This document shows positions 21,824 through 64,000 of a stretch of DNA of 64,000 nt, in pieces. Under the pieces are notes generated by a model. That model ran no database searches, was not told the DNA's origin, and saw only the letters and a program-made list of their open reading frames with translations. Positions within the stretch are counted from its first letter, which is position 1; each line of letters starts with the position of its first letter. The stretch comes from an uncultured Pelagibacteraceae bacterium (GTDB taxonomy: Bacteria > Pseudomonadota > Alphaproteobacteria > Pelagibacterales > Pelagibacteraceae): NCBI GenBank assembly GCA_902529645.1, contig CABZXO010000001.1:124001-188000 (forward strand), in the 5' to 3' direction. The position numbers were made by a program, and so were the translations under genes.

Positions 21824-21892
21824 GATCTCTTTATATTTGTAACGACTCATAAAATTTAATAGGCTTTAAATAAACAAATATGGAGAGAGAAT

Positions 21893-57966: not shown

Positions 57967-58920
57967 ATGAGTAGTGATAACAACTCAAAAGGAATTCTTT
58001 TAGTAATTGCAGCGATGACAATGTTTGCAATGCAGGATTCTTTAATCAAATTTATTTTTGAAAAAGCTTCATTATATGAAATCTTTTTTGGAAGGTATTT
58101 TGTTGCTGCATTATTACTTTTTGGTTACATCAAATTTAAACGTCAAAAAGTTACGTTAAAAACTTTTTATCCTTTTTTTACAATTTTAAGGGTAATTCTT
58201 CACTTTTTAGCCTTTTCAGCATTTTTTATCTCTCTAACCTATATGCCTTTAGCTACTGCAAATGCTTTATTTTTTTCATGTCCATTTTTTGTATCAATTT
58301 TTGCTAAGTTTTTTTTAAAAGAGTTTATTGGAATTAGAAGATGGTCTGCAATCCTGTTTGGTTTTATTGGTGTGTTTATTGTTTTAGATCCAAACTTTTC
58401 TGATTTTGATTACAAAAGTTTATTGCCTGTTCTATGCGCTTTTTTTTATGCGGCTTCAATGACAATAACCAAGTACACTTCTGATAAAGATGATGTTAAT
58501 ACTCAACTCTTTTATTTTTATCTAATAGCATTAATACTTTGTGGAATTATCTTTATCTTTATGGGTAACGGTCAACTTAATGATTCTAATTTTGATCCCA
58601 CTACTCAGTTTATATTTAGAGAATGGTTTTCAAACATTGAATATACTTGGAAATTTATTTTATTTTTCGGTTTTGCCGCCTCAATTGCCTTTGTTTGTAT
58701 TTTTACTGCATACATTGTTGCTTCACCATCGGTTGTATCATTATTTGAATATTCTTTAATTATAATGTCTATGGTCCCAGGTTATTTCTTATTCAATGAA
58801 ATACCCTCTGTTAGAACATTTATTGGTGTTGCATGTATAATAGCAGCTGGAATTTATATTTACATAAGAGAAAAAGCTAGAGATCAATATATTGCAACAG
58901 AAACACCTGTTAGAAGATGA
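57967..58920 (+). CDS. EamA/DMT-family transporter
   Basis: Ten-TM protein with FFISLTYMPLATANALFFSCPFFV. Confidence 0.88.
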   Translation: MSSDNNSKGILLVIAAMTMFAMQDSLIKFIFEKASLYEIFFGRYFVAALLLFGYIKFKRQKVTLKTFYPFFTILRVILHFLAFSAFFISLTYMPLATANALFFSCPFFVSIFAKFFLKEFIGIRRWSAILFGFIGVFIVLDPNFSDFDYKSLLPVLCAFFYAASMTITKYTSDKDDVNTQLFYFYLIALILCGIIFIFMGNGQLNDSNFDPTTQFIFREWFSNIEYTWKFILFFGFAASIAFVCIFTAYIVASPSVVSLFEYSLIIMSMVPGYFLFNEIPSVRTFIGVACIIAAGIYIYIREKARDQYIATETPVRR

Positions 58921-59885
58921 ACAAGAACTATATACCAACAATTAATATTTCATCATTGGTTAAAAACAATTTTGAAACTCAAAACGCATTGAAAACAATT
59001 AAAGAAATCGAAAAAGCTTGTTTTAATGTAGGATTTTTTCAAATTATGGGACATGGAATTAATCTAAAAGAAATAAAAAGAACATGTGAAGTTGGAAACA
59101 AATTTTTTAATTTACCAGACGGAACAAAAAGAAAATTAGCACCTAAAAAATGGAATAAAAAAAATAAAAATTTATACAGAGGATATTTTCCTAATGATGT
59201 TAACGGAAAAGAAGGTCTGGATATAGGTGATTTAAAAGTAACTAAAGAATATTCTTCAAATCTTAAAAATCAATACATTGAGTTTATTAATCTAGGTATG
59301 TGTTTTAATAAAAACTCAATTAATATTTTAAATAATTATTATGATAATATTTTTAGATTAAGTGAAACATTATTTAAAAGTTTGATAAAAGCTTATAAAA
59401 AAAATCCTGATATTTCTAGTGTAGCTTTTTCAAGATTAAAAACATTAAGCACATTAAGATTTAATTATTATCCAAATCAAACGAAACCAGTAGAAATATC
59501 AAAACAAGATGGGGTTGCGCTTGGATGTGAAACTCATGTTGATAGTGGAATATTTACAGTTCTTTATCAAGATAGAAAAGGTGGATTACAAGTACAAAAT
59601 AGAAAAAACAAAAGATGGTATGATGTACCATTTAATAATAAGGCTCTTGTAGTAAATACTGGAAGAGCTTTAGAATATTTAAGCAAAGGTAAATTTAAAG
59701 CAACTAATCATAGGGTTTTGTGGAATAAAAGTAAGAGGCTCTCCGTTCCTTTTTTCTTTGAACCTTCCTATGATTTCAAAATGAACCTATCATTTTTGAA
59801 TGATAATAAATCTGAAAATAATGGCGAAATTTATGAAAAATTTCTCAAGAAATCTTTAAAGAAATTTATTGAATATCAACGTTAG
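58917..59885 (+). CDS. Isopenicillin N synthase-like 2OG-Fe(II) oxygenase
   Basis: CFNVGFFQIMGHGI, ETHVDSGIFTVLYQD (HxD), ATNHRVLWNKSKRLSVPFFFEP. Confidence 0.88.
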   Translation: MNKNYIPTINISSLVKNNFETQNALKTIKEIEKACFNVGFFQIMGHGINLKEIKRTCEVGNKFFNLPDGTKRKLAPKKWNKKNKNLYRGYFPNDVNGKEGLDIGDLKVTKEYSSNLKNQYIEFINLGMCFNKNSINILNNYYDNIFRLSETLFKSLIKAYKKNPDISSVAFSRLKTLSTLRFNYYPNQTKPVEISKQDGVALGCETHVDSGIFTVLYQDRKGGLQVQNRKNKRWYDVPFNNKALVVNTGRALEYLSKGKFKATNHRVLWNKSKRLSVPFFFEPSYDFKMNLSFLNDNKSENNGEIYEKFLKKSLKKFIEYQR

Positions 59886-59919
59886 TAATTATAAAGTTTA
59901 AATATAAAGCGATACATAA

Positions 59920-59990
59920 CTCGTCGTTAAATTCAAAAATTTACGAAAGTGGGATCGGTCGTCTTTAAATTAATTTTTAAAGGAGGCTTT
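59920..59990 (+). promoter_or_regulatory. Structured leader able to sequester the SD of the LLM gene, possible cis-regulatory RNA
   Basis: ctttaaa (59963-59969) pairs with tttaaag (59976-59982); stem extends via gtc/ggc so that GGAGG (82-86) is largely paired; a second AT-rich hairpin lies upstream (59924-59945). Confidence 0.45.
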
Positions 59991-61157
59991 ATGAACTTTG
60001 GATATTTTTGTAATACTACTAATTGGGATAAAAAACCTTATGCCCAACTTCTAGACGAAGCTAGAGAAATCACTGAATATTGTGATCAAAATAATTGGAA
60101 TTCTATTTGGTATACCGAACATCATTTTAATCATGAAGGAATGGAGTCTTGCACCAATCCACTAATGATGTGTACTGATGCTGCTGCAAGAACTAAAAAT
60201 ATTCGTTTAGGACAAGCTTGCAACGTAATTACATTTCACAATCCCATAAGACTTGCGGAAGATATTGCAACCCTTGACCAAATGTCAAAAGGAAGAGTTG
60301 AAGTTGGTATTGGAAGAGGAGTTTATGGAAGAGAAGCTATTAACATGAATAAAGAGGCTGACTTAAAAGACCAAGCAAAAAATTTTAGATTATTTTCTGA
60401 AACGTTAGACATAATGAAAAAAGCATGGTCAGAGGACTTCTTTTCTCACCAAGGTGAATTCTATACTTATCCCTCACCAAATTTTATTTGGCAGCACGAT
60501 ATGAGTCCCCCTAAAGAAAATGTTGTAGATTTAAAAACAAATGAATTAAAACAAATATCTGTTTTACCAAAACCTTATCAAAAACCCTTCCCACCAATTT
60601 CTCAAGTGGTTGATGGAGAAAGATCAATTCAGTGGGCGGCAGAAAATGGACTTAATACAATTATGTGGATACCAACTGTAAAAGCTTTGAAAAAAAGATT
60701 TGAAATTTATAAAGAGGCAAAATCTAAAGCTGAAAATAGAGATGTACCACTGGGTGAAGGTATTAGTTTGGTTAGAGATATGTTTGTTGCGGAAACTATG
60801 GAAGAGGCTGAAAAAATGGCTGGAGAACATATTGTAAATTATATGAGATGGGTTTGTCATTGGAGAGGTTTAGGAAATCATATGGACCCAGATGAAAAAT
60901 TACCAGAGACAAAAAATAAGCTAGATTTATTAAATTATGAATTTCTTCATAAAAGAAATCTTTTATTTGGAACACCTGAGTTTGTAATAGAAAAAATAAA
61001 AGAACTTCAGCAAGAATTAAATCTTCAAAATTTACAAGTATGGTCTAACTTTCCAGGTATTAAACATGAAGATTGTATGAGAAGTATCAAATTATTTACA
61101 GAAGAAGTTATTCCACATATAAAATCAATAAACACAAACATTCAAAGAGCAAGTTAG
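59991..61157 (+). CDS. LLM-class flavin-dependent oxidoreductase (luciferase-like)
   Basis: WYTEHHFNHEGMESCTNPLMM, ATLDQMSKGRVEVGIGRGVYGRE; ATG at 59991 behind AAAGGAGG, upstream start 59949 unlikely. Confidence 0.92.
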   Translation: MNFGYFCNTTNWDKKPYAQLLDEAREITEYCDQNNWNSIWYTEHHFNHEGMESCTNPLMMCTDAAARTKNIRLGQACNVITFHNPIRLAEDIATLDQMSKGRVEVGIGRGVYGREAINMNKEADLKDQAKNFRLFSETLDIMKKAWSEDFFSHQGEFYTYPSPNFIWQHDMSPPKENVVDLKTNELKQISVLPKPYQKPFPPISQVVDGERSIQWAAENGLNTIMWIPTVKALKKRFEIYKEAKSKAENRDVPLGEGISLVRDMFVAETMEEAEKMAGEHIVNYMRWVCHWRGLGNHMDPDEKLPETKNKLDLLNYEFLHKRNLLFGTPEFVIEKIKELQQELNLQNLQVWSNFPGIKHEDCMRSIKLFTEEVIPHIKSINTNIQRAS

Positions 61158-61160
61158 TAA

Positions 61161-61745
61161 ATGGATCTAAAACTGAGGAAATTTACAAAATTTGTAGATA
61201 AAACTTTTATTGAAGGGGGAAAAAAAGCAAAAGAGCCTGTTCTACTAGTTTCGGTTGCAGCTGTTATAGAAAATCCCTGGGCGAGAAAAGGTTTTGTTGA
61301 AGATTTGAAACCAGAAATATTAGATCTTGCACCTCAATTAGGGGATCTATTGGTGCCAGAATTAACTAAAGAAATTGGATCAGGTGAAAAAATTTTAGCT
61401 TATGGAAAAGCTGCAATGGTTGGATTAAATGGTGAAATAGAGCATGCATCGGCATTTATTCATACTTTAAGATTTGGAAATAAATTTAGAGATGCCGTTG
61501 GTGGAACTTCTTATTTAAGTTTTACAAATACCAGAGGTCCGGCAGGTGCAAAAATATCAATTCCAATGATGCATAAAACTGATGCTGGATTAAGACCTTT
61601 TTATCTAACACATGAATTTACAATTCATGATGCACCAAACGAGGATGAAATAGTTGTTGCAATTGGAGGTGCTCCAACTGGACGAGCTCATGCAAGAACG
61701 GGTGATAGATATCAAGACATGAAAGAGATGGGCATTGATAACTAA
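61161..61745 (+). CDS. DUF1185/'amino acid synthesis' family protein
   Basis: IENPWARKGFVEDLKPEILDLAPQLGDLL, GKAAMVGLNGEIEHASAFIHT, GGAPTGRAHARTGDRYQDMKEMG. Confidence 0.85.
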   Translation: MDLKLRKFTKFVDKTFIEGGKKAKEPVLLVSVAAVIENPWARKGFVEDLKPEILDLAPQLGDLLVPELTKEIGSGEKILAYGKAAMVGLNGEIEHASAFIHTLRFGNKFRDAVGGTSYLSFTNTRGPAGAKISIPMMHKTDAGLRPFYLTHEFTIHDAPNEDEIVVAIGGAPTGRAHARTGDRYQDMKEMGIDN

Positions 61746-62534
61746 TTGATGTCTTATAATTTTGATAAAGATCAAAATCATTATTATTTTAATAACAAGA
61801 ATTCTTTACCTATAATTTTTATTCATGGCGTTGGTTTAAATCAGCAAATGTGGAAACCACAAATTGAATTTTTTAAGGACAATTCATTTATAACTTACGA
61901 TCTTTTGGGACATGGAAAAACACCTTTTAATTCGCAAGAATTAACAATGGAAAATTTTACTGATCAATTATCAAATTTAGTAAATAACCTAAAGATAGAG
62001 AAATTTAATTTAATTGGCTTTTCTATAGGATCTTTGATTGCAATTGAATTTGCCTCAAAATATGAAAATTATTTAAATTCCTTAACTCTAATATCCACTA
62101 CATACCAAAGGACAGTAGAAGAAAGACAAAATGTAATCGATAGAGTGAATTTAGCAAAAAAAAATATGCCAATATCTCAAATGGCTATGAAGAGGTGGTT
62201 TTCAGATAAATACCTTAAGCAAAATCCTGAGTTATATGATGAGTTTATTAAAACTCTTAATAAGAAAGGAATTGATCAAGAAAATTTTATTAAATCTTAT
62301 GAGGTGTTTGCAAACTATAAGGACAATCTTGAAAATATAAAAAATATAAAAACAAATACTTTAATAATAACTGGATCAGATGATCCAGGATCTACACCTG
62401 ATATGTCGAAAAATTTATACAAAGATATACAAAATTCAACATATGTTGAAATCAAAAATGGAAAACATCTATGCACTATTGAATATGCAGACGAAGTAAA
62501 TAATGCAATAATGAAACATATAAATAATGCCTGA
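61746..62534 (+). CDS. Alpha/beta hydrolase
   Basis: IIFIHGVGLNQQMWKPQ, GFSIGSLIAIEFA nucleophile elbow, TGSDDPGSTPD. Confidence 0.9.
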   Translation: MMSYNFDKDQNHYYFNNKNSLPIIFIHGVGLNQQMWKPQIEFFKDNSFITYDLLGHGKTPFNSQELTMENFTDQLSNLVNNLKIEKFNLIGFSIGSLIAIEFASKYENYLNSLTLISTTYQRTVEERQNVIDRVNLAKKNMPISQMAMKRWFSDKYLKQNPELYDEFIKTLNKKGIDQENFIKSYEVFANYKDNLENIKNIKTNTLIITGSDDPGSTPDMSKNLYKDIQNSTYVEIKNGKHLCTIEYADEVNNAIMKHINNA

Positions 62535-64000
62535 ATTAAAAAAATATCAAATGTTTATAGATGGTCAGTGGGTAGACTCTGATACAAAAAAAACTTTTGA
62601 AACTTTAAATCCAGAAAATAATAAGCCATGGGCTGTAGTTCCTGAAGCTAGCGCAAATGATGTAGATAGAGCTGTAAAAGCTGCACAAAAAGCTTTTGAA
62701 GGTGAATGGCCAAAGATGCTAGCAAGAGATAGAGCAAAATATTTAAGAGCCATTGGAAATAAGCTAAGAGAAAATTCTGATTTATTAGGAAAAATTGAAA
62801 CAATTGATACAGGAAAACTGTACAGAGAAACTTATCAACAAGCAAAATACATTGCAGAATATTATGATTACTATGCAGGTTTAGCTGATAAAGTTGAAGG
62901 AACAGTTCTTCCAATAGATAAACCAAATATTCAAGCGATCACAACAAGAATTCCAATAGGTGTTATTGCAGCTATCATTCCTTGGAATTCTCAAATGTTT
63001 TTAACTGCAACGAAAGTTGCTCCTGCTTTAGCTATGGGTAATACAGTAGTAATTAAATGTTCTGAACTAGCACCAGCAACTATGTTTGAGTTTGTAAAGT
63101 TAGTTGAAGAAACTGGAATACCAAAAGGTGTTGTAAATGTAGTTTCTGGTTTTGGGGATCCATGTGGTAAAGCTTTAACTACTCACAACTTAGTTGAGAA
63201 AGTAGCTTTTACAGGAGGTCCTGAAACTGCAAGGCATATTATTAGAAACTCTGCAGAAAATTTATCTGAAGTAAGTTTAGAATTAGGTGGGAAAAGTCCT
63301 GTAGCTGTTTTTGATGATGCTAAACAGGAAAATGCAATTAATGGAATAACTGCTGGAATATTTGGAGCAAGTGGTCAAAGTTGTATAGCAGGTTCAAGAT
63401 TGTACTTACAAAAAGGAATTTATAACGAGTTTTTAGATAAGTTAGCATCAAGGGCAGAAAAAATTAAAATAGGTGCTCCAATGGACTCTGATACTGAAAT
63501 GGGTCCACTAAGTAACTTCAAACAATTAGAAGTAATAGAAAAAAATATTAAATTGACTGTTGAACAAGGTGGAAAAATTAAATGTGGTGGTAAAAGACAT
63601 CCTTTTTCAAATGAAGGTTATTATTTTCCTCCAACAATTATTGAATGTGAAAATCATAATTTACCAGCTGCTGAGAATGAACTTTTCGGACCTGTTTTGT
63701 CAGTGATGAAATTTGATACTGAAAAAGAAGTAATAGAATTAATGAACGACAACCAATATGGTCTTTCTTCAGGTGTTTACACTAGTGATCTTGCAAGAGG
63801 CATGAGGGTATCTAATGCTATCCGAGCAGGAATAACATTTGTAAATACTTATAGATTAATTTCACCCTCAGCTCCATTTGGAGGTATTAAGGATAGTGGA
63901 TATGGTAAAGAAGCAGGAATTGACTCAATTAAAGACTATACAAGAGTAAAAACAACTTGGTTCTATACATCAGACGAACCTTCTTTGGACCCCTTCTCAA
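62527..64000 (+). CDS. Aldehyde dehydrogenase, 3'-truncated by the window edge (not in ORF track)
   Basis: ATG at 62527 overlaps previous stop: MPELKKYQMFIDGQWVDSDTKKTFETLNPENNKPW...IIPWNSQMFLTATKVAPALAMG...LELGGKSPVAVF...GASGQSCIAGSR; open to the end. Confidence 0.93.
   Translation, partial: MPELKKYQMFIDGQWVDSDTKKTFETLNPENNKPWAVVPEASANDVDRAVKAAQKAFEGEWPKMLARDRAKYLRAIGNKLRENSDLLGKIETIDTGKLYRETYQQAKYIAEYYDYYAGLADKVEGTVLPIDKPNIQAITTRIPIGVIAAIIPWNSQMFLTATKVAPALAMGNTVVIKCSELAPATMFEFVKLVEETGIPKGVVNVVSGFGDPCGKALTTHNLVEKVAFTGGPETARHIIRNSAENLSEVSLELGGKSPVAVFDDAKQENAINGITAGIFGASGQSCIAGSRLYLQKGIYNEFLDKLASRAEKIKIGAPMDSDTEMGPLSNFKQLEVIEKNIKLTVEQGGKIKCGGKRHPFSNEGYYFPPTIIECENHNLPAAENELFGPVLSVMKFDTEKEVIELMNDNQYGLSSGVYTSDLARGMRVSNAIRAGITFVNTYRLISPSAPFGGIKDSGYGKEAGIDSIKDYTRVKTTWFYTSDEPSLDPFS

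Follow-up and report, generated by a model that had tools for sequence, protein, structure and literature searches.

SAR11 bacteria belong to the most numerous cells on Earth, and their transcription factors are few. SAM-II and SAM-V riboswitches, which occur in SAR11 and in other Alphaproteobacteria, form short SAR11 5′ leaders that target the ribosome site in front of metabolic genes, as is proposed here for a further element. In translational ON riboswitches of the add type, a substrate switches on a catabolic gene; in the Vibrio vulnificus adenine riboswitch (add), as in the model given below, the helix closed by the ligand is in competition with another in which the Shine–Dalgarno (SD) sequence is hidden. 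Orphan riboswitch candidates have also been described in SAR11 HIMB5, namely TIGR03647, fcbT1-I/II, and RS05825, and according to the main text of that survey these are, like the element considered here, structured leaders limited to SAR11 and located beside the ribosome site (Stav et al., 2019, PMC6429828).

The LLM operon and the architecture of its leader

Within the window, which is the whole 64,000-nucleotide stretch of DNA that was analysed, a gap of 105 nt (59886–59990) separates a 2OG-Fe(II) oxygenase gene on its 5′ side (58917–59885) from a gene for an LLM flavin-dependent monooxygenase (luciferase-like; ATG at 59991, 59991–61157, + strand; PF00296, E 2.5e-46). The initial annotation regarded this gap as unusually long, which is fair within the window, where the median intergenic gap is about 4 nt. 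It also placed an LLM/DUF1185 operon behind the leader, as is borne out by the matches to PF00296 and PF06684. LLM is the first gene of the operon and is followed on the + strand by genes for a PF06684 (AA_synth, DUF1185) protein (61161–61745; E 9.7e-64), an alpha/beta hydrolase (PcaD/RutD-like; 61749–62534), and an aldehyde dehydrogenase (62527–63999; PF00171, E 1.6e-160) that extends slightly past the window end; beyond the window a gene for a branched-chain-type substrate-binding protein follows. In several SAR11 relatives a thiamine-diphosphate enzyme (acetolactate synthase / glyoxylate carboligase-like), absent from the window operon, is inserted between LLM and DUF1185 (L186:2251–3951, L162:3112–4809, and L171:2245–3954).

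The structure of the leader was derived from 71 distinct cores and a 53-sequence alignment. The RNA core, of about 58 nt, is nearly invariant over SAR11, and all its parts lie on the + strand. The outer helix, P1, is formed by GCGAU (59909–59913) and GUCGU (59958–59962), with 93 % of cells paired in the 53 leaders and with pair types that vary. Next inwards, the internal-loop strand ACAUAA (59914–59919), almost invariant in all leaders, faces AUCG (59954–59957), in which the AU is invariant. Helix P1b follows, with CUCG (CUCR in the consensus; 59920–59923) paired to UGGG (YGGG; 59950–59953), and an AAG bulge (59947–59949) is present in every aligned leader. Between the two conserved halves of the core stands the P2 hairpin, UCGUUAAAUU-CAAA-AAUUUACGA with one bulge in the window (59924–59946), which begins UCG...CGA and is highly variable in stem and loop length among leaders, the whole hairpin measuring from 11 to about 40 nt. 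Downstream is the core hairpin of P3, CUUUAAA-UUAAUU-UUUAAAG (59963–59982), and the SD, GGAGG (59982–59986), is buried when P3 is extended, the GUCGU strand being common to P1 and to this extension.

Much of this had been recognized in the initial annotation. The CTTTAAA/TTTAAAG stem with its 6-nt loop, the extension through G59958–C59987, T59959–G59986, and C59960–G59985 with one G·A mismatch, and the second hairpin upstream, P2, were all recovered, and the SD said to be buried by the extended stem is the second most buried among the 16 SD-bearing 5′ regions of the window. P1 had been overlooked, and this helix is key to the mechanism proposed below. No other of these 16 regions folds with an energy as low as that of the leader; against shuffled sequences its z scores were −2.2 and −2.3, with 6 and 4 out of 200 shuffles folding equally well. 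Folding energy by itself is thus just modestly special, and it is conservation that is decisive. Another gene start in the window, at 21892 (+), also has an SD that is almost fully buried and a stable 5′ fold of −15.3 kcal/mol.

Conservation, covariation, and linkage to LLM

In all 79 database loci having upstream DNA, the element lies directly before LLM. A sequence-model search showed that further genera of the Pelagibacteraceae and a second family of the Pelagibacterales also carry it, and in these LLM follows 30 out of 30 intact copies with downstream DNA that was read, usually together with the remaining operon; this count excludes the weak model hits L180, L184, and L197–L200, which lack the core and lie mostly within coding sequence. 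High-quality SAR11 genomes without the RNA contain no LLM relative at E 1e-60, so that the RNA and the operon are gained and lost as a pair. The window and the second family agree at 33 out of 35 core positions, with an LLM DNA identity of only 66 %. The first reading of this region had been made to depend on conservation of the stems among relatives, and the core proves to be near-invariant across two Pelagibacterales families.

Outside the Pelagibacterales, no copy was found by the structured model at E 0.01 in samples of the class and the phylum, a search with strict filters that divergent forms may escape, and exact-pattern scans of viral contigs gave no full motif and seven chance matches to one arm. 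One copy of the element lies in the relative genome G324 (contig C1: 1277229–1277324). Core copies without LLM behind them were seen at L167:1788–1859 (−), L182:2877–2954 (−), and L194:902–955 (+), the genomes of L167 and L182 also carrying an intact copy; these resemble what would be left after the operon had been lost or exchanged at a variable locus. A degenerate second core copy (L181:6494–6539, −) is located a few hundred bases upstream of an intact one.

For the whole structure in the 53-sequence alignment, four pairs and 10 cells are changed on both sides, whereas shuffles give 0.9 and 1.0; the share of paired cells is 95 %, falling to 32–44 % when the structure is slid. RNAalifold, run without a given structure, recovers P2 and three P1 pairs. 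The search for covariation across SAR11 leaders that had been recommended at the outset had a positive outcome, with compensatory changes in P2, at three of the four basal pairs.

For P1, two-sided change is limited to one leader of the 53-sequence alignment. In L185, the most informative example for P1, the 5′ strand as read by eye is GAAGAC and its partner GUUUUC, so that both strands are changed and six pairs are kept; the G·A mismatch of its SD helix is replaced by U-A. In the GGUCC clade (L081 and others) P1 has one mismatch, and in some leaders a one-base deletion leaves just two or three P1 pairs in register. Three of the four P1b pairs never vary and the fourth is A·C in nine of the 53 sequences. 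Among 113 leader variants this last pair (R-Y) is G-U, A-U, or A·C and never G-C, which suggests that the position is constrained by more than helical pairing. An alternative outer helix, CGAU:AUCG, directly after GGG was rejected; it pairs in most sequences, has no supporting change, and is broken where P1 holds.

The proposed switch and its alternatives

It is likely that the leader represents a new orphan class of cis-acting translational riboswitch, whose ligand would be the substrate of the downstream pathway or an intermediate formed early in it, with the SD hidden without ligand and freed with it. In the predicted OFF state, GGUCGUCUUUAAA would pair with UUUAAAGGAGGCU, hiding the SD. 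With ligand present, the core would be closed through GCGAU:GUCGU, removing the 3′ strand from the SD-burying helix, and this closure of P1 would free the SD bases GAGG, so that LLM, and probably the following genes too, would be translated. P1 and the full SD-burying helix are mutually exclusive, because 59958–59962 also falls within 59957–59969, which pairs with 59976–59988. As the operon is catabolic, a substrate-driven ON switch would be the natural polarity, and the candidate riboswitch is probably of this kind. No intrinsic terminator (a G+C-rich stem followed by a U run) was found in 59700–60050.

In the window, the calculated energies are −15.6 to −17.2 kcal/mol for folds with the SD buried and −13.3 kcal/mol for the P1 fold, which is the only one with GAGG open. 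Across 94 modelled leaders, the calculated mean openness of the SD G residues is 0.14 without P1 and 0.67 with P1, an increase being seen in 92 leaders, and in L186 the SD stays closed with P1; this contrast is a matter of feasibility and not of function or independent proof, since forcing overlapping strands partly yields it. The P1 fold has a median cost of 2.3 kcal/mol in these leaders, which in this model ligand binding could pay. A conserved, structured, aptamer-like domain is present in the 5′ leader, and an expression platform exclusive with the aptamer fold is found by calculation only.

The region had been proposed to be a riboswitch or a thermosensor. Conservation, compensatory changes, and two exclusive pairings add weight to the riboswitch reading. 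Against the thermosensor, in which warming would melt the SD helix, speaks the position of the most conserved nucleotides, which are unpaired and far from the SD. The SD is indeed hidden by an A-U rich helix of limited stability, as an RNA thermometer would have it, but such a device needs no conserved ligand-like core and here there is a near-invariant upstream core with unpaired bases, the core and loops being most strongly conserved and the sequence of the SD helix varying freely. With an operon that is catabolic and includes neither heat nor virulence genes, a thermometer is highly improbable. Control by a protein is the more serious competitor, although still rather unlikely: translation might be under feedback control by an enzyme of the operon, or by some general RNA-binding protein, with no small ligand, and the short core, the AAG bulge, the conserved asymmetric loop, and the strict linkage to a single operon would all suit this. 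No protein is known to bind the SAR11 LLM leader, and the combination of a metabolic operon with an SD that is buried and loop nucleotides that do not vary is in general more riboswitch-like.

Strong sequence conservation could also be due to an operator or promoter element acting at the level of DNA, its folding being coincidental. The compensatory changes in P2 and the range of hairpin lengths tolerated between the conserved halves favour RNA, however, and no promoter-like match was found on the + strand, making this explanation very unlikely. Hardly any weight is given to a leader peptide, in which a short upstream reading frame would lie behind the conservation. A frame opened by GTG GGA TCG GTC... 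does exist in the window, but neither start codon nor frame is conserved: GTG is replaced by GCG in 12 of the 113 variants, a stop follows two codons downstream in the GGGATAGG clade, the frame relative to LLM shifts with one-base length differences (L069), and the 5′ half of the core is outside it.

Candidate ligands and comparison with known systems

On the preferred riboswitch reading, the gene evidence points towards an N-heterocycle as ligand and not to any particular one. Trigonelline degradation by Acinetobacter baylyi involves an enzyme of the LLM family, TgnB (PMC11354265), and a homologue of DUF1185, TgnF (PMC7913881). The likeness of this trigonelline (tgn) operon to the SAR11 operon is in gene content only, namely LLM, DUF1185, alpha/beta hydrolase, and aldehyde dehydrogenase near an ABC transporter. 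A Rhizobium cluster shares LLM, DUF1185, alpha/beta hydrolase, and aldehyde dehydrogenase with SAR11, at identities of 58–59 % for DUF1185, 41–51 % for the aldehyde dehydrogenase, and 25–26 % for LLM, and has a flavin reductase, an ABC transporter, and a succinate-semialdehyde dehydrogenase as neighbours. In contrast to the tgn and Rhizobium clusters, the SAR11 operon has no flavin reductase and its LLM is just distantly related; the Rhizobium cluster also has an adjacent GntR regulator gene and, unlike SAR11, no known RNA leader. A related compound, homarine (N-methylpicolinate), is ubiquitous in the sea, and a bacterial pathway for it has recently been reported (as cited in PMC13390433). Based on the resemblance of the operon to trigonelline-type pyridine degradation clusters, the leading guess, a tentative one, is an N-methylpyridine carboxylate (homarine, trigonelline) or its ring-opened product. 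Somewhat more doubtful is a riboswitch class for the N-methylated pyridine carboxylate itself (homarine or trigonelline), sensing a phytoplankton osmolyte and inducing its breakdown; if true, very abundant ocean bacteria would detect such an osmolyte by RNA. In the literature searched, no paper linked SAR11 to a luciferase-like monooxygenase or to enzymes of the LLM class.

Should the leader be a riboswitch that responds to the substrate of this accessory catabolic operon, it would identify a nutrient that SAR11 tracks and offer a handle on the uncharacterised LLM/DUF1185 pathway; its RNA core allows direct screening against candidate marine metabolites. As an aptamer it would be small and of unusual shape, with its asymmetric conserved loop, AAG bulge, and one pair that is never G-C.

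Searches of the window and seven relatives against Rfam 15, at the gathering threshold and at E<=10, gave no family match and chance hits only. The SAM-II and SAM-V classes, named beforehand as families to compare, were among the covariance models without a match. As a control, the SAM-V search found copies in three relatives, three of the copies lying within intergenic regions with coordinates published for HTCC1062, and gave no match in the source genome, an incomplete assembly. The LLM leader locus is not mentioned in the text of the HTCC1062 study. The element might already be listed in the SAR11 RNA survey of Stav et al. (2019), with the main text of which it was compared here. The element is judged to be a putative new orphan class of translational riboswitch, without a counterpart in Rfam 15.

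SAM-II and SAM-V differ from this element in being pseudoknots whose ligand fold hides the SD, and in sequence, layout, and genes. The add riboswitch is built on a three-way junction, whereas the new element is a single hairpin with asymmetric loops. In the main text of the SAR11 survey, the four HIMB5 candidates differ from it in gene and layout; for example, P3 of RS05825 is located 8–12 nt upstream of the ribosome site, whereas P3 of the new element contains the ribosome site (PMC6429828).
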